Source of the DNA: Planctomycetota bacterium
GTDB lineage: Bacteria; Planctomycetota; E44-bin39
DNA length: 64,000 nucleotides
Assembly: GCA_004376375.1 (NCBI GenBank)
Contig: SOJX01000049.1
Span: 40,173 to 104,172 of the forward strand
Direction: 5' to 3'
Shown here: piece by piece, positions 50,519-58,144 of the stretch
How positions within the stretch are numbered: the first letter of the stretch is position 1
How the letters are laid out: every line of letters starts with the position of its first letter
Position numbers and translations under genes: made by a program
Notes under the pieces: model-generated
Database searches by the model: none
The model's input: the letters and a program-made list of their open reading frames with translations, nothing else
Told to the model about the DNA's origin: nothing

Positions 50519-51886
50519 TTAGGGTATGTCCGTAAATGTGCCGCCCCAGTCACCCGAGAGCTTGCGCAGAAAGGCGTCGTTTGCATAACTGTCGGGCGTC
50601 ACGAAACCGTAGGTAAAGATTTTCACCTTGCGCTGCTTGTTGGCGTTATTTACGAACTCGTAAATCGGCTCGAGCGGCAGGTCGCCCTGCCGGAACGGGT
50701 GGCCGTCGGAGAGCAGGAACAGGTGGTCGAATTCCTTGTCCTCGAAAGCCTTCCGGAGCGCCACGTCGGTCGAGGTGCAGCCCATCGGCGAGAACTTGTC
50801 GACCCAGGTGCACGAGTCAATCTTGTTTCTGGCGGTCGCGGGCATGAGCTTTTCTTTCCATGCGGCCGCACCGGTGGAGAATGCAATGATGTTGAATTTC
50901 ACGTTCGGCTCGAGGCTTTCAATACACTGCCTGAGCTCTTTCTGGACGCGCTTTATCCTCATGCGGTCCAGCGGAAGGGACGGGTCGCCGCCGAACGGAT
51001 TGCTTCCAGACTGCGGCCTCGGCTGGCCAGGCTTGGGCTGTACCGCTGCATCGTCGCGTTTCTTCTTCGGGTCCTTGGCAACCATGCTGCCCGAGCAGTC
51101 GATCAGGAACATGATGCGCTTCGAGCGGATTTCGGTCCCGAAGAATTTCGGCAGCTTCTTTTTTTCCGCGGCAGAGGTGCGGCTGGTTGAGCCCCCGGAT
51201 TCACCGCGTTCTTCATCCTGATTGAAGCCCTCTCTGACCGCATCCCACCATTGTTTCCAGTTGGCGGGATCGGCCTCGTCGTGGCCGGTAAGGGCATGCA
51301 GCGCTTCGCGGATAAGTATCCAGATAAGGCCTTCCTTGTCCTTTTCGTTCAGCTCGGTGTAAAAGTCGATGAGCGGTCCAACGGCGCGCGTTTCGTCGCG
51401 GTCCTTGAGGGCATTGATCGCGTCGCGCTGAACCTTTTCGGATCTGTCCTTCATAAGGATTATAAGGGCGTCGAAAACGTCCTGGCCCTCGTCTTCTTTA
51501 TAGATCTCGATCAGGACGCAGCGAATTTCCCACGGTGTGCGCTTGGACGTCATCTGCTTGACAAGGTAGGGGCGGATATCGGCCTTGTCCTTCAGGGGCG
51601 GGAGCGCGGCCTTGAACGCTTCAAACACTTCTACCGTGTCAGCATTCGGGAAGCATGAGAACATCAGCTTCACGGCTTTCAGGTCGTTTAGTTCACCCAG
51701 CTCGGTAACGATTGCGGCGATTTTCTTGCACGCGGCAGACTTGACGTCAGGACTCGCCTTTTTCCCCATAATTACGCCAAGGGAAACTGCCAGGCGCTTT
51801 TTAAGTCCAGACAGTTTCGAGCCCGCAAGCGCAACCTGCAGGCCAACCAAGAGTACGACGATAATAATAATTGTTCGGCGTGACAT
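50519..51886 (-). CDS. Exported HEAT-repeat and von Willebrand A domain protein
   Basis: 455 residues from the ATG at 51886 (AGGAGGG upstream). A signal peptide or N-terminal anchor (TIIIIVVLLVGLQVALA) is followed by HEAT-type helices (about 30-230). A vWA domain (from RIMFLIDCSGSM) has the MIDAS motif DCSGS, a later Thr in GCTSTDVAL and Asp in LLSDGHP. A Lys/Pro/Gln-rich insert interrupts the vWA domain after its first strand. Such proteins bind ligands through a metal ion in the envelope. Partner unknown. Confidence 0.85.
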   Translation of the reverse strand: MSRRTIIIIVVLLVGLQVALAGSKLSGLKKRLAVSLGVIMGKKASPDVKSAACKKIAAIVTELGELNDLKAVKLMFSCFPNADTVEVFEAFKAALPPLKDKADIRPYLVKQMTSKRTPWEIRCVLIEIYKEDEGQDVFDALIILMKDRSEKVQRDAINALKDRDETRAVGPLIDFYTELNEKDKEGLIWILIREALHALTGHDEADPANWKQWWDAVREGFNQDEERGESGGSTSRTSAAEKKKLPKFFGTEIRSKRIMFLIDCSGSMVAKDPKKKRDDAAVQPKPGQPRPQSGSNPFGGDPSLPLDRMRIKRVQKELRQCIESLEPNVKFNIIAFSTGAAAWKEKLMPATARNKIDSCTWVDKFSPMGCTSTDVALRKAFEDKEFDHLFLLSDGHPFRQGDLPLEPIYEFVNNANKQRKVKIFTYGFVTPDSYANDAFLRKLSGDWGGTFTDIP

Positions 51887-52024
51887 AAAGCCCTCCTGCG
51901 AATAGAGGAATAGAATTATCTTCTCTCCCCGTTTTTCCACACGCACAGGGTGAAAAAGTTCCCTTTTTTTCCCTGTAGGCGGCTGATTCCGGCGATGCCC
52001 GGCTTTACCATAGAAATCAGGCCG

Positions 52025-52589: not shown

Positions 52590-53741
52590 ATGGATAAAAG
52601 AGTCGGCATAGTAGGAATCGGAACAACGGGATTCAGGGCGACGACGCCCGACGTATCATACAGGGAATTGACCTACGAGGCGGCTGTAAAAGCCTATCTT
52701 GATGCCGGCGTCGAGCCCGGGGATGTTGGCGCGTTCGTCGCCACAGCCGAGGATTTCGTCGAAGGCTACAGCATCTCGGACGAATATTCGCCCGACCAGC
52801 TCGGTGCAGTGCTGAAGCCAATCCACACCGTGCCAGGCGACTTCATCCAGTCCCTCGCCAACGCTTACATGATCATCCTCACCGGATTCTGCGATATTGC
52901 GGTCGTGCAGGGATTGAGTAAGGCATCCAATATGCTGACCAAGGGAGATCTCCGCACTTTCGCTGCCTGTCCATTTACCTGGCGACCGTTGAGAGAAAGT
53001 CCTCACGCTATCGCGGCGATGGAGATGACCAGATTCCTGCACTGCACAGGCAACACGCGCGAGCAGTGCGCCCGGGTGGTTGTGAAAAACAGAAGGAACG
53101 CCCTGAATAACCCGAGGGCTGCTCACGGCGCCAACCTCGAGCTGGAAGATGTCATGCGTGCCGAGATGAGAAGTGAACCTCTCGGAAAACTCGATATAGC
53201 GCAATATGCCGATGGTGCCGTAGTATGCGTTATTGCTACTGAAGAAAAAGTAAAAGCTTTGGGAAAAGATGCGATATGGATAAAAGGAGTAGGCTGGGCC
53301 ACCGAGGCATACTCGCTCGAAACACGAGATTGGGAGAGTGCTCCATATTTCCGCCTTGCAGGCGACATGGCCTATAAAATGGCCGATATACGTACGCCGC
53401 GAAAGGAAATAAACTTCGCCGAAATCAACGATGAATATTCATTCAAAGAACTGCAGCATCTCGAGGCGCTGCGCCTTTGCGGAAAGGGAGAATCGGGGAA
53501 ACTGATGGAAACCGGCTTCACCGAGATGACGGGCGATTTCCCCGTAAACGCTTCCGGCGCAAATCTCGGCAGCGGCGCCACGTTTGACCTTGACGGTGGG
53601 CAAAAAGTACTCGAAGTAGTCCTTCAACTGCGAGGAGAAGCGGGCGCCAACCAGTTGAAAGACGTGCGCACAGGCCTTGCTGCCGGATGGCGGGGAGTTC
53701 CCACGACAACGGGTGCAGTAGCCATCCTGTCCAGAGACTAG
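52590..53741 (+). CDS. Thiolase-fold protein lacking catalytic residues (subunit 1)
   Basis: 383 residues of the SCP2-type thiolase superfamily, seen in VGIVGIGTTGF at the start and VLQLRGEAGANQL near the end. The residues that define thiolases are missing. The nucleophile Cys region reads TVPGDFIQSL (80-89). The His of the HDxF motif is Asn 280 in EINDEYSFKEL. The C-terminal Gly-His-Pro is replaced by GANLGSGATF (323-332). It therefore cannot work by standard thiolase chemistry. GGAGGG lies 5 bases before the ATG. First gene of a tight four-gene set with a second such protein and two DUF35 proteins. Confidence 0.85.
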   Translation: MDKRVGIVGIGTTGFRATTPDVSYRELTYEAAVKAYLDAGVEPGDVGAFVATAEDFVEGYSISDEYSPDQLGAVLKPIHTVPGDFIQSLANAYMIILTGFCDIAVVQGLSKASNMLTKGDLRTFAACPFTWRPLRESPHAIAAMEMTRFLHCTGNTREQCARVVVKNRRNALNNPRAAHGANLELEDVMRAEMRSEPLGKLDIAQYADGAVVCVIATEEKVKALGKDAIWIKGVGWATEAYSLETRDWESAPYFRLAGDMAYKMADIRTPRKEINFAEINDEYSFKELQHLEALRLCGKGESGKLMETGFTEMTGDFPVNASGANLGSGATFDLDGGQKVLEVVLQLRGEAGANQLKDVRTGLAAGWRGVPTTTGAVAILSRD

Positions 53742-53769
53742 GAATTTAGCAAACCCCGGGGAGGCTAAA

Positions 53770-54933
53770 ATGGGATATAGAAGAGTAGCGGTAGTCGGCG
53801 CCGGAATTACCAAGTTTGCGCGTTTCGCCCAGGAAACTCCTGGAGAGCTTGCGTTCCAGGCATCCAGAATGGCGCTCGATTCATGCGGCATGAACATCTC
53901 GCAGATAGACAGCGTCTCGATCGGCACCGCGCCCGACGCCTTCGATGGATTTCACATGAAATCCGAAATGCTCTCGGACGGCAGCGGCGGCTGGCGCAAA
54001 CCTGTCATGCGCAACTACGTCGGAGGCGGCACCGGAGTTATGAGCATTATTCACGGCTGGCAACACGTCGCATCGGGAATGTTCGATACATGTCTTGTTG
54101 TCGCCGAAGAAAAGATGTCCAGCGCTTTCCCGCATCCTGCCGGCGCGTTTGTAACTATCTTCGACCACACTACTGAACAGCCGCTCATGCCCACGCTTCT
54201 CTGGATATTTTCAATCGAGATGAACCGGTTCATGAACGCCCACGGCTATAAGAAGGAAGAAATCGCCCAGGTCGCGGTAAAGAACAAGAAAAACGCGCTC
54301 GACCACCCGTCCGCTCAACTGGCGGCCGAAATCACCGTTGATGACGTCCTCAATTCCGAGGTAATGGCGTGGCCCGTCAACAGGTTTGATGTAAGCCCGA
54401 CGAGCGATGGAGCGGTCGCCCTTGTCCTTGCCGCGGAACCCGTCGCCCGGCGTGTTACGGAAAAGCCGATCTGGATAGACGGTGTCGGCTGGACACTTGA
54501 CACGGCTTACTGGTGCACCAGGGATCTTTATTATCCGGATTACGTGGAAGTCGCCGCGCGAAAGGCATACGAAATGGCGGGCATTAAGGAGCCATCCAAA
54601 GAAATCCACATTGCCGAGCCTTACGATCCGTTCACCTACAAGGAACTGCACCATGTTGAAGGCCTCCAGCTCTGCCCGAGAGGCGGCTCGGTGAAAATGC
54701 TTCTTGACGGTGTTACTCAGCGCGACGGTAACCTGCCCGTCTGTCCTTCCGGCGGACTTCTGGGAGTAGGTAACCCCATCGCCGCCGCCGGCCTCATGAA
54801 ATGCGCCGAGATTTTCTGGCAGTTGAGGGGCGAAGCCGGCAAAAGGCAGGTGCCGGGCACACCCGAATGCGGCGTAGCCCAGGCGTGGGGAGACCTGATG
54901 CAGGTCGGAACCGTCGTAGTAATGAGAAAATAA
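53770..54933 (+). CDS. Thiolase-fold protein lacking catalytic residues (subunit 2)
   Basis: 387 residues, related to the preceding protein and closer to the archaeal SCP2-thiolase type (VAVVGAGITKF, SGMFDTCLVVAEEKM). The nucleophile Cys position is Gly in YVGGGTGV (83-90), the HDxF His is Tyr 285 in EPYDPFTYKEL, and GHP is GNP (334-336). A Tyr in place of the thiolase His recalls the Ltp2 steroid side-chain aldolases, thiolase-fold enzymes that work with a DUF35 partner; this is an analogy. GGGGAGG precedes the ATG and the gap to subunit 1 is 28 bases, so a heteromer is likely. Confidence 0.87.
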   Translation: MGYRRVAVVGAGITKFARFAQETPGELAFQASRMALDSCGMNISQIDSVSIGTAPDAFDGFHMKSEMLSDGSGGWRKPVMRNYVGGGTGVMSIIHGWQHVASGMFDTCLVVAEEKMSSAFPHPAGAFVTIFDHTTEQPLMPTLLWIFSIEMNRFMNAHGYKKEEIAQVAVKNKKNALDHPSAQLAAEITVDDVLNSEVMAWPVNRFDVSPTSDGAVALVLAAEPVARRVTEKPIWIDGVGWTLDTAYWCTRDLYYPDYVEVAARKAYEMAGIKEPSKEIHIAEPYDPFTYKELHHVEGLQLCPRGGSVKMLLDGVTQRDGNLPVCPSGGLLGVGNPIAAAGLMKCAEIFWQLRGEAGKRQVPGTPECGVAQAWGDLMQVGTVVVMRK

Positions 54934-54948
54934 CCGGGGAGAAATTAT

Positions 54949-55494
54949 ATGGCCATCATCAACAAGCGGATTACAAGGGAAATGGTTGAGAAGACCGTCA
55001 CTCCGCTGAGGCGGAATGACCTTTTGGAGAAGAATGTCATCACCAGCGAATGGGAGCCAAAGCTCCATTACGCCTGGGACAACGGCCCGGCTATCGCAAG
55101 ATACCTTGCGGAGTTGAAAAACGGAAGAATCATAGCGAGACGCTGCAGGAAATGCGACAGAATCATGCTTCCGCCGCGGATGTTCTGCGAGCTCTGCTGG
55201 AGGCCGACTGACGAATGGATCTTCGTCAAAGACTCCGGCGTCATCAACACGTTCTGCATCAGCCACGTGGACTGGAAGGCGGGAAGACTGGATATAGAAG
55301 GCGGCGAGCGCCCCTACACGCCTGCCATTATCGAGATTGACGGCGCATCACCGGGAATGGGTATTCTGCACATGATCGACGAGGTTGATCCGAAGAAAAT
55401 CAAGATCGGGATGAAAGTGAAGGCTGTCTGGAAGAAACCGGAGGAACGCGAAGGCGCAATAACCGACATAATTCACTTCAAGCCGGTGAAATAA
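54949..55494 (+). CDS. DUF35 zinc-ribbon OB-fold protein 1
   Basis: 181 residues. A ~45-residue helical N-terminal extension precedes a rubredoxin-like zinc ribbon (Cys 66, 69, 80, 83 in CRKCD and CELCW) and an acyl-CoA-binding OB-fold (INTFCISHVDW ... GMKVKAVWKKPEER). DUF35 proteins pair with thiolase-fold enzymes and form the binding tunnel for the CoA substrate, as in archaeal HMG-CoA synthase complexes and in Ltp2 aldolases. It begins 15 bases after subunit 2. Confidence 0.9.
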   Translation: MAIINKRITREMVEKTVTPLRRNDLLEKNVITSEWEPKLHYAWDNGPAIARYLAELKNGRIIARRCRKCDRIMLPPRMFCELCWRPTDEWIFVKDSGVINTFCISHVDWKAGRLDIEGGERPYTPAIIEIDGASPGMGILHMIDEVDPKKIKIGMKVKAVWKKPEEREGAITDIIHFKPVK

Positions 55495-55521
55495 TACCTG
55501 TAAACTCCGAAGGAGGCTCAA

Positions 55522-56004
55522 ATGGCGCTTATAGAGAGGCTCGAAAAGACTACCGACGCCACCCACTGGTGCGGACAAATCCCCATGAACTACGTCTATA
55601 CGGCCGGCCGCGCCGGGGAATTGTTTTTCAAAACCTTGAAGGAAAAAGGCGAATTCGTAGGCGCCCGATGCAATGATTGCGGAATTGTCTACCTGCCGCC
55701 GAGAATCCACTGCGAACGATGCTTTTCCAACATCGAAGGAAATAACGTTAAAGTCCCGAATAAAGGGACTGTGCACACATTTACCGTCTGCCATGAAAAC
55801 TATGAAGAAAAAGCCAAAGAAGCGCCGTCCATAGTCGCCATGATAAGAATGGAAGGCGCTGCAGGCGGGCTCGTTCACTGGATACGGAAATGCGAGCCTG
55901 AAGAATGCACAATTGGAATGGAAGTCAAGGCCGTCCTGAAACCCGAAAAAAATAGAGAGGGCAGCATACTCGACATCGACTATTTTGAGCCGATAAAAAA
56001 ATAA
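55522..56004 (+). CDS. DUF35 zinc-ribbon OB-fold protein 2
   Basis: 160 residues with zinc ribbon Cys 50, 53, 64, 67 (CNDC, CERC) and OB-fold (VHTFTVCHENYEE ... GMEVKAVLKPEKN). Clearly a paralog of the preceding gene, with AAGGAGG before the ATG. Two different DUF35 proteins beside two different thiolase-fold proteins suggests a four-component complex or two related pairs. Confidence 0.9.
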   Translation: MALIERLEKTTDATHWCGQIPMNYVYTAGRAGELFFKTLKEKGEFVGARCNDCGIVYLPPRIHCERCFSNIEGNNVKVPNKGTVHTFTVCHENYEEKAKEAPSIVAMIRMEGAAGGLVHWIRKCEPEECTIGMEVKAVLKPEKNREGSILDIDYFEPIKK

Positions 56005-56124: not shown

Positions 56125-56154
56125 TTGCTTTTAGCTTTTGAATTCTGTATATTC
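56125..56154 (+). promoter_or_regulatory. Possible promoter of groES2-groEL3
   Basis: TTGCTT (56125-56130), 18 bases, TATATT (56149-56154) in the 214-base gap after the second DUF35 gene. If used, the chaperonin pair can be expressed apart from the DUF35 operon. No CIRCE and no TGCCA-N3-TGGCA site is seen here. Confidence 0.38.
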
Positions 56155-56218
56155 TTTGGCCCGAACGACTTCTATTCTTTTACAATACACTGTCCGTTCA
56201 ATACGAGGGAGGCCGAAA

Positions 56219-56506
56219 ATGAAAGTCCGTCCATTAGGTGCAAACGTGCTGGTCAAACGCATCGAGGCAGATGGGGTAACAAAAGGCGGAATTGTGATCC
56301 CCGATTCTGCGAAGGAAAAACCGCGTGAAGGCAAAGTGATCGAGCTCGGCGACGGCCGGCTCCTGGAAAAAGGCGGCCGCGCGGAATTTCAGGTGAAGAA
56401 AAATGACAGCATCCTGTTCTCGTCTTACGCCGGCACCGAGGTCAAGATTGAAGGTGAAGAGTATCTGATTATGAGCGAGGACGATATTCTCGCTATCATC
56501 AAGTAG
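56219..56506 (+). CDS. groES: Second co-chaperonin GroES
   Basis: 95 residues from the ATG at 56219 (GAGGGAGG upstream). [32 protein letters not shown] and [16 protein letters not shown] mark a full GroES with its mobile loop. It differs from the copy at 28979 and is followed by its own groEL 18 bases on, so the two probably work as a pair. Confidence 0.96.
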
Positions 56507-56524
56507 GCGCCGGAAGGAGACGTC

Positions 56525-58144
56525 ATGCCGAAAACAGTAAAGTTTTCCCGCGAGGCGCAGGAGGCGCTCCTGCGAGGACTCGAGCCTCTTGCACGGGCGG
56601 TCAAAGTCACGCTCGGACCCACCGGGAGATCTGTAATACTTGAAAAAAAGTGGGGAAGCCCGACCGTCACAAAAGACGGGGCCATGGTCGCCAAGGAGAT
56701 CGATTTCGAAGAGCCGGAAGCCAACATAGGCGCCCAACTGCTCAAAGAAGTCGCCGCCAAGACCCAGAAGGACGTGGGCGACGGCACTACAACGGCCGTG
56801 GTGCTGGCGGAATGCATATTTCAGGAAGGAATGAAATTCCTCGCAGCCGGCAACGACGCCCAGAAACTGGCGGGAGGGATACGCGCCGCGACAAATGCGG
56901 TTGCCGAGCATCTCACGAAGACGGCAAAGCCCATCACGGGTGCGGACGATACAAAGGCGGTCGCAACATCCGCGGCCAACAACAACCCGGCCGTCGGCAG
57001 CCTTGTCGCTGAGGCGTTTGAAAAGGTCGGCAAGGACGGCGTTATCACCATAGAAGAAACCGAAGGCATGGAGATGAGCTGGACCTGGGCCGAGGGCATG
57101 GAGTTCGACCGCGGTTATGCGTCGCCGTATTTCATCACCGACGCGGAAAACCTTCTTACCGAGTTGGATAACCCCCATATCCTCGTGCACGAGGACAAGA
57201 TTTCCTCGCTGCAACCCCTGATACCTCTGCTCGAAAAAGTGCACGAGTCTGGAAGACCCCTGCTTATCATCGCAGAAGTCGTGGAAGGCGAGGCGCTGAC
57301 GGCTCTGGTTATGAACCATATTAACGGCGTTCTGCGTTCATGTGCGGTTAAGGCGCCGGGCTTCGGCGACCGGCGCAAGGCGATGCTGCAGGATATCGCC
57401 ATCCTGACCGGCGCGCGCGCAATTATGAAGGACATAGGCGAGAAACTCGAGAACCTTACGCTCGATGCGCTCGGCAGCGCAAAGCACGTTACCGTGAGTA
57501 AGGACAACTGCACATTAGTTGGTGGAGCCGACAACCCCGACGACGTTGCCGCCAGAGTCGCGCAACTCAAAGCGGAATACGAAGAAAGCGACTCCAGCTA
57601 CGACCGTGAAAAGCTGCAGGAGCGGATAGCAAAACTTGCGGGCGGAGTTGCCCGTATAGACGTGGGCGCAGCCACCGAAACCGCGACAAAAGAACTCAAA
57701 GCGCTTGTGGAAGATGCCGCGGCGGCGACGCGCGCCGCGCTCGAGGAAGGCGTGGTCGAGGGCGGCGGTACGGCCCTGCTCAGGTCCGCCGGCGCCGTAA
57801 ACTCGCTCGCCCTGACCGGCGAGGCTGCAATAGGCGCAGACATCATCCTCCGTGCGCTCAAGCGGCCGTTGCACCAGATTGCGGAAAACACCGGCCACAG
57901 CGGCGACATCGTCGTCGACCGCGTCCAGGGCGCGGCGGAGGGCCAGGGATTCAACGCCCTTACGGGTAAATACGAAAACCTGGTGGAGTGCGGAATCCTC
58001 GATGCGGTAAAAGTCGTCCGGACGGCGCTTCAGAATGCGTCATCGCTTGCGACTCTCATGCTTACCTGCGACGCGCTTATTGCAGAGATACCGGAAAAGG
58101 ACAAAGGGCCGGGCATGCCGGACATGGACGATTACGACTATTGA
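56525..58144 (+). CDS. groEL: Third chaperonin GroEL, divergent paralog
   Basis: 539 residues. The core is intact: [25 protein letters not shown] start, [13 protein letters not shown], catalytic Asp in [16 protein letters not shown], and [11 protein letters not shown]. The ending MPDMDDYDY is acidic and has no GGM repeats. The sequence differs at many positions from both other GroELs here. Downstream of the thiolase-like/DUF35 set, so it may be a client-specific chaperonin for that complex (inference). Confidence 0.96.

Follow-up and report, generated by a model that had tools for sequence, protein, structure and literature searches.

The window considered here, a 64,000-nucleotide stretch of a Planctomycetota genome (contig SOJX01000049.1, positions 40,173 to 104,172) taken at its full length, carries on its + strand four consecutive genes that encode two thiolase-fold proteins, called T1 and T2 below, and two DUF35 proteins, D1 and D2. 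T1 (52590..53741; 383 residues), a putative partner subunit devoid of the thiolase Cys/His/His residues, is followed after 28 bases by T2 (53770..54933; 387 residues), the putative catalytic subunit, which is separated by 15 bases from D1 (54949..55494; 181 residues), itself located 27 bases upstream of D2 (55522..56004; 160 residues). A purine-rich Shine-Dalgarno-like stretch is found at each of the four genes. Note also that T2, D1 and D2 (53770-56004) share one reading frame, split by stop codons and short gaps. An earlier note, made from the sequence alone, had given this order and these coordinates, with gaps of 15-28 bases and two DUF35 proteins, and open reading frame positions and Pfam matches agree with it on all these points.

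T1 matches the Pfam family Thiolase_C_1 (PF22691) with 93 bits, and T2 matches the same family with 100 bits as well as Thiolase_N with 51 bits. All three scores lie above the curated cut-offs, supporting the fold signatures that the note had recognized in both proteins, and in fold models the thiolase fold is present over the whole length of these subunits. Among NCBIfam models, T2 falls within PRK06065 (610 bits, cut-off 455), and the nearest model to T1 is PRK06066 (444 bits, below the cut-off of 516). D1 and D2 both match zf-ChsH2 (PF12172) and OB_ChsH2_C (PF01796), again above all curated cut-offs, and combine a Cys4 zinc ribbon (C66/C69/C80/C83 in D1, C50/C53/C64/C67 in D2) with an OB fold. 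The zinc-ribbon Cys ligands are kept in 72-74 of 74 aligned D1 rows and in 69-70 of 70 D2 rows, and the best match of D2 among solved structures is SSO2064 (3irb). PF22691 and PF01796 have two matches each in the window's genome, both within this set (E 1e-3).

Active-site residues of the two thiolase-fold subunits

In a joint alignment with solved proteins, the column of the nucleophilic Cys is occupied in T2 by Gly86 (VGGGTG; codon 54025..54027, + strand), that of the HDxF His by Tyr285 and that of the GHP His by Asn335 (codon 54772..54774, + strand), an Asn also found in Ltp3-like proteins. Tyr285 belongs to the motif PYDPF (residues 284-288; 54619..54633, + strand) and shares its column with the Tyr that serves Ltp2 (YDHF) and Sal (YDCY) as catalytic base. 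In T1 the same three columns hold a shortened loop (TVP-GDF), Asn280 and Ala330. The loss of the Cys and of both His residues from the two proteins of the window, as claimed in the earlier note, is therefore borne out by the alignment. Its description of both as "catalytically empty" does not suit T2, because the substitutions found there are invariant: Gly85, Gly86, Thr88, Pro284-Tyr285-Asp286-Pro287-Phe288, Gly334 and Asn335 are kept in 76 of 76 rows, the window's own included, and 145 positions of T2 are at least 97% conserved across phyla.

The T1 rows present a different pattern, with an invariant Asp281 (81/81), Asp or Asn at the HDxF His position in 76 of the 81 rows, and a variable GHP-His column that holds His in 36 of them. 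T1 also contains a loop rich in near-invariant residues, 53-70 (AEDFVEGYSISDEYSPDQ; 52746..52799, + strand), in which Asp55 and Asp69 are found in 81/81 rows and Glu54 in 80/81. This loop may represent a subunit-contact or active-site loop; in the monomer model it is of low confidence, residues 60-65 scoring under 50. No Cys is found among the positions conserved in at least 97% of T1 or T2 rows. Taken together, this comparison of active-site residues suggests that T2 is likely the catalytic subunit and T1 its partner.

Recurrence and phylogenetic placement

Relatives of the set were found at 332 places in named genomes, and the best 80 served as neighbour loci, a choice that favours closer relatives. 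The complete T1-T2-D1-D2 set, on one strand and in the same order, is found in 70 of these 80 homologous loci, which is more than chance; eight of the incomplete ones end with their contig and two (L046 and L073) are without a part. The locus titles cover Deltaproteobacteria/Thermodesulfobacteriota, Syntrophaceae, Chloroflexota, Syntrophomonadaceae, Armatimonadetes, Abditibacteriales, Spirochaetes, WOR-3, Latescibacteria, Krumholzibacteriia, a Bdellovibrio, an actinomycete and Planctomycetota, some loci being cut so that only T1-T2 is seen. Among the sets seen in named genomes, the closest belongs to a Candidatus Brocadiia (L025), where T2 is 89% and T1 78% identical to the window's proteins. 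The four-gene set is thus real, widely conserved and, rather than being confined to this lineage, present in many bacterial phyla. No description of it was found in the literature searched, which was mainly open-access, most subscription journals lying outside its scope.

Across 70 sets, the four proteins show correlated pairwise distances (r 0.64 to 0.85, with none of 999 label permutations reaching any of the six values), a result that fits joint function and shared ancestry alike and does not separate them. In the window's phylum, three of 17 fetched stretches (L203, L207, L208) have T1-T2 without adjoining D1 or D2 (E 1e-3). Two of these three genomes, G011 and G098, encode a D1-D2 pair on a contig other than that of T1-T2 (L233 6559-7655 and L234 5410-6534, respectively; D1 50 and 57%, D2 44 and 42% identical), so that the four parts travel together even where the pairs are split; in the third, G312, which is 56% complete, no D1-D2 pair was seen. 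Two loci depart from the common arrangement in other ways. In L046 (10001-11047) the T1 match covers residues 1-349 and T2, D1 and D2 were not found though the contig goes on, possibly reflecting a decayed set beside an intact mutase. In L075 (6259-8934) a second, divergent set of a DUF35 gene and two thiolase-fold genes lies directly upstream of a normal T1-T2-D1-D2.

A tree was built from 66 rows, a hand-picked subset with 18 T1 and 19 T2 rows, leaving out the Nonomuraea thA, which has a stop codon within the stretch as cut. T1 and T2 each form a clade with 100/100 support and are joined at 84/76 in the free tree. Both lie inside a 46-row branch, set off by a 100/99 split, in which not a single row has Cys at the nucleophile column; its other members are a Streptomyces pair, a Nonomuraea Ltp3-like protein, a Cupriavidus pair with two DUF35 genes, a Natrinema pair and two planctomycete proteins. 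The opposite side of that split holds Ltp2, Sal, BbsB, SCP2 thiolase and archaeal thiolases. This tree has some long end branches, and the groups were defined with its topology already in view. A single clade of all Tyr-motif proteins was rejected by the approximately unbiased (AU) test (p-AU 0.013), which indicates that the Gly/Tyr site probably arose twice, as judged from the sequences. A clade uniting T2 with the Ltp3-like rows was not rejected (p-AU 0.254), yet it is absent from the free tree.

The tree bears out the expectation that T1 and T2 would group with non-thiolase members: they lie in a separate Cys-free branch, apart from true thiolases and from Ltp2/Sal. Assignment of T1 and T2 to the Ltp2/Sal family was accordingly rejected by the tree and the AU test. 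Their assignment as thiolases was likewise rejected, given that the site has no Cys and that other parts of the genome encode three Thiolase_C proteins. A thiolase-fold protein of G022 (L011 1501-2661), with GG at the Cys site and HDAF and GHA kept, branches basally on the thiolase/Ltp2 side.

Genomic context and proposed function

Neighbouring gene clusters were obtained with a crude open reading frame picker, replaced by a codon-GC picker in the high-GC loci where the crude one failed, and annotated with Pfam from one or few representatives each. An acyl-coenzyme A (acyl-CoA) dehydrogenase is found in the fetched flanks of 38 of the 80 loci, less than 400 bases away in 27, and the large subunit of a B12-dependent mutase in 14. 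All 13 linked mutases that could be fully checked have Phe/Gln where methylmalonyl-CoA mutase has Tyr/Arg, and are thus of the isobutyryl-CoA-mutase type; the fourteenth (L064) has the Phe, its contig ending before the second position. Second mutases in L031, L034 and L037 are Tyr/Arg. The linked mutase set comprises the large and small subunits and an adenosyltransferase, with MeaB in some loci. The window's own genome (G000) contains such genes on contig C101 (L116, 1-7949), namely 3-hydroxybutyryl-CoA dehydrogenase, acyl-CoA dehydrogenase, MeaB, mutase large and small subunits and a second acyl-CoA dehydrogenase. The C101 mutase is of the Phe/Gln type and shares 62% identity with its L028 counterpart; this genome also encodes two Tyr/Arg mutases, one of them truncated by the contig end. 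In G098 the dehydrogenases, MeaB and mutase occur in the same order as on C101. In two further genomes the mutase large and small subunit genes are directly followed by one gene for a thiolase-fold protein of 443 residues and a single DUF35 gene (L231 3181-7132 in G312, L232 8483-12593 in G011), which ties Cys-free thiolase-fold/DUF35 units to this mutase again. This 443-residue protein has Gly in place of Cys and keeps HD (HDAY) and GHP; the unit is possibly a half-converted relative.

Within the window, the set is directly followed on the same strand by groES-like and groEL-like genes (56138-58144, recognized by eye), and a divergently placed gene, by eye a von Willebrand-like protein, lies upstream of T1 (50519-51946). 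A divergent gene is likewise found upstream of T1 in L025 (2794-3858); its protein has no match in the window at 1e-20 and may thus differ from the window gene.

Reasoning by analogy with characterized proteins, we propose that the four proteins form one 2+2 heteromeric aldolase acting on branched beta-hydroxyacyl-CoA, with T2 as the catalytic subunit, and would put the probability of this reading at roughly 50%. Two thiolase-fold and two DUF35 proteins would assemble in one complex that cleaves, or in reverse joins, a C-C bond, with CoA bound across T2 and a DUF35 subunit. Gly86, at the position of the thiolase Cys, would leave room for the beta-hydroxyl group, from which Tyr285 would take the proton to start cleavage. 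The resulting acyl-CoA enolate would be held and protonated, Asn335 being a candidate for the oxyanion hole and the acid possibly coming from the conserved loop of T1 or from water. Thiolase-fold proteins dimerize, and T1 may for this reason be a non-catalytic or co-catalytic partner. The substrates would be methyl-branched acyl-CoAs after dehydrogenation and hydration, which seem likely because relatives of the set often adjoin acyl-CoA dehydrogenases and isobutyryl-CoA-mutase-type mutases. Branched beta-hydroxyacyl-CoAs would be consistent with the aldolase-like site, with the neighbouring mutase and dehydrogenase genes and with the precedent of C24-branched sterols.

Co-occurrence speaks for the link with the mutase: among 391 other genomes of the same phylum, T2 is present in 16, the closest mutase group in 14 and both in 8 (Fisher p 2.7e-9; the T2 count leaves out a 39% match in G022). 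Several observations weigh against this aldolase proposal. The cut used for the co-occurrence was set after seeing the data, looser cuts giving p values of 8.5e-9 and 1.5e-7, and the genomes are not independent. T1-T2 need not be the mutase's partner, because the mutase of G011 and G312 directly adjoins a different unit that keeps HD and GHP, and the T1-T2 and D1-D2 pairs can be unlinked. In the window the set stands alone, with no match to an acyl-CoA gene next to it; the earlier note had seen no lipid or steroid gene nearby, and the searches agree, steroid families having been covered by the neighbour queries only. Of the 17 stretches from the same phylum, a single one has an acyl-CoA dehydrogenase and a single one a mutase small subunit, several of the stretches being short contigs, and several Chloroflexota loci place the set among housekeeping genes such as nusB and tatC. 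Three Thiolase_C proteins are encoded in the window's genome, so that no thiolase or lyase is plainly missing, and in five of the 81 T1 rows the Cys loop does carry a Cys, at position 82. Similarity to Ltp2/Sal seems to be the product of convergence, and function is therefore read by analogy. The acids reported for these enzymes, Cys304 in Sal and Tyr344 in Ltp2 (PMC12329534), are not found in T2, which has Pro287 and Asn335 at the respective positions. In one study, knockouts showed ltp3 and ltp4, whose products are compared with the set below, not to be needed for 4-HBC formation. What stands of the hetero-oligomeric acyl-CoA enzyme, perhaps an aldolase, put forward in the earlier note is the aldolase-like Gly/Tyr site and the conserved linkage; the known proton donors are missing and the resemblance to Ltp2/Sal is apparently one of convergence.

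In a more specific and rather unlikely version, the set would be a second, independently evolved thiolase-fold aldolase for a tertiary beta-hydroxyacyl-CoA, for example converting 3-hydroxyisovaleryl-CoA to acetone and acetyl-CoA, on a biotin-free anaerobic route without methylcrotonyl-CoA carboxylase or 3-hydroxy-3-methylglutaryl-CoA (HMG-CoA) lyase. NF004283, which we take to be the HMG-CoA lyase model, has no match in the window's genome (94% complete) at E 1e-20, and the only NCBIfam match of both full-length carboxyltransferases encoded there is mmdA, below cut-off (E 1e-40); these results leave room for such a retro-aldol route without demonstrating it. A leucine-type cluster on contig C128 of this genome (L120 6690-11734) was also considered; its acyl-CoA dehydrogenase is nearest to glutaryl-CoA dehydrogenase (428 bits, cut-off 470). 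This gene is followed by ones for an mmdA-like carboxyltransferase and for the beta subunit of a sodium-pump decarboxylase, so that the cluster is probably not a methylcrotonyl-CoA carboxylase set, and is possibly a Na+-pumping decarboxylase set.

Other activities can be considered for the same proteins. A Cys-free thiolase fold could stabilize the enolate formed by CO2 loss from a malonyl- or methylmalonyl-type CoA ester, as suggested by the very slow malonyl-CoA decarboxylation reported for TbSLP, a thiolase-fold protein with YDCF (PMC12329534), and by a carboxyltransferase match in 5 of the 80 loci. Nevertheless, Sal is reported in the same paper to show no malonyl-CoA decarboxylation, both active-site His residues are replaced in T2 and the 13 fully checked linked mutases are Phe/Gln rather than methylmalonyl type, which makes a decarboxylase quite improbable. 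Aldol reactions being reversible, the set could also join an acyl-CoA enolate with an aldehyde or ketone in the biosynthesis of branched beta-hydroxyacyl-CoA. FabD-like acyltransferase and FabG-like short-chain dehydrogenase genes lie beside it in several Chloroflexota loci, and a Streptomyces Ltp3/Ltp4-like set is found near a terpene synthase; we still consider a biosynthetic role unlikely, as the linkage with acyl-CoA dehydrogenase and mutase suggests breakdown and the other Chloroflexota neighbours, nusB and tatC among them, are housekeeping genes.

The disappearance of the Cys and of both His residues, with no proton donor identified, would also suit a sensor or scaffold for acyl-CoA binding, with the fold retained and catalysis lost, and the DUF35 protein Trf is indeed described as having a role outside acyl-CoA metabolism (PMC6996347). 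Mere binding would not require 145 T2 positions to be at least 97% conserved, the active-site Gly, Tyr and Asn included, and a regulatory function consequently appears fairly remote. Least probable, and in our view very unlikely, is a true thiolase-type (Claisen) enzyme whose nucleophile is supplied by another subunit or residue. Some records do name relatives acetyl-CoA acetyltransferase, the Syntrophaceae-type mutase/acyl-CoA dehydrogenase cluster that holds the set would need a terminal thiolase, and there are the five T1 rows with a Cys in the Cys loop; but none of the highly conserved positions of T1 or T2 is a Cys, the conserved Cys residues of D1 and D2 fit the zinc ribbon, and the genome already has its three Thiolase_C proteins.

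If the aldolase proposal is true, thiolase-fold aldol chemistry would have arisen at least two times by the same swaps, Cys to Gly and His to Tyr, and would extend past steroid degraders to the B12-mutase-linked metabolism of branched-chain acyl-CoAs. Pathway predictions in which these genes figure as thiolases would then need correction; the acetyl-CoA acetyltransferase annotation of some records is already contradicted by the active-site columns. The lineages affected (Deltaproteobacteria, Chloroflexota, Planctomycetota, Syntrophomonadaceae) are largely known from environmental genomes, and the set provides a concrete four-protein target for purification.

Comparison with known systems

The aldol-type chemistry of such thiolase-like proteins is best known from steroid breakdown. 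T2 resembles Ltp2 and Sal in its thiolase fold, the Gly at the Cys site, the Tyr of the YDxF/Y motif and the DUF35 partner, whereas T1 is unlike them in having a shortened Cys loop and Asn280. The base is reported to be Tyr302 in Sal and Tyr294 in Ltp2, and Gly89 of Sal is reported to contact the hydroxyl (PMC12329534). In the structures Ltp2-ChsH2 (6ok1) and Sal-Shy (9myr), a single thiolase-fold protein forms a homodimer, with DUF35 domains of one kind on its flanks. Of the residues typical of true and DUF35-linked thiolases such as SCP2, BbsB and archaeal AACT, T1 and T2 of the window lack the Cys nucleophile as well as the His of HDxF and that of GHP, in contrast to the BbsB and archaeal thiolase rows, which keep Cys, HD and GHP.

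Two clusters are comparable by their context. The isobutyryl-CoA mutase cluster of Syntrophothermus lipocalidus contains the large and small mutase parts, an adenosyltransferase and a MeaB-like protein, as found beside the set in Syntrophaceae-type loci, but the accessible part of its description mentions no thiolase-fold/DUF35 set (PMC5017805). The acetone-induced cluster of Desulfotomaculum arcticum, likened here by gene content, holds genes for a B12-dependent mutase and for acetyl-CoA acetyltransferases, one of which (04022) adjoins the gene of a DUF35/zinc-ribbon protein (04021); it differs in that one DUF35 protein is named and that the route proposed for it relies on a thiamine-diphosphate enzyme together with 2-hydroxyisobutyryl-CoA mutase (PMC8084838).

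The closest parallel is provided by sets of the Ltp3/Ltp4 type, named so here by gene order, size and context (such as an EchA19-like neighbour) and not by comparison with tested proteins. Like T1/T2, they combine two different Cys-free thiolase-fold proteins with two DUF35 domains in one operon, and the Ltp3-like protein shares with T2 the Tyr at the HDxF His, the Asn at the GHP His and its side of the 100/99 split. They differ in the fusion of the DUF35 domains in one protein, in a sequence identity of 25-32% and in their sterol context. In Streptomyces (L132) and Nonomuraea (L136) the gene for the two-DUF35-domain protein is followed by two thiolase-fold genes, those of Streptomyces being PRK07937 and PRK08313, and in Nonomuraea the set lies next to genes for an acyl-CoA ligase and an EchA19-like protein (344 bits, cut-off 400). 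A published table lists Rv3521, ltp4 (Rv3522) and ltp3 (Rv3523), together with fadD19 (Rv3515c) and echA19 (Rv3516) (PMC6429209), and in secondary statements ltp3/ltp4 are described as aldol lyases acting on the C24-branched side chains of sterols (PMC8708139; PMC6593523). All in all, the four-gene set of the window is likely a heteromeric thiolase-fold aldolase, a variant from the branch to which the Ltp3/Ltp4 type also belongs.

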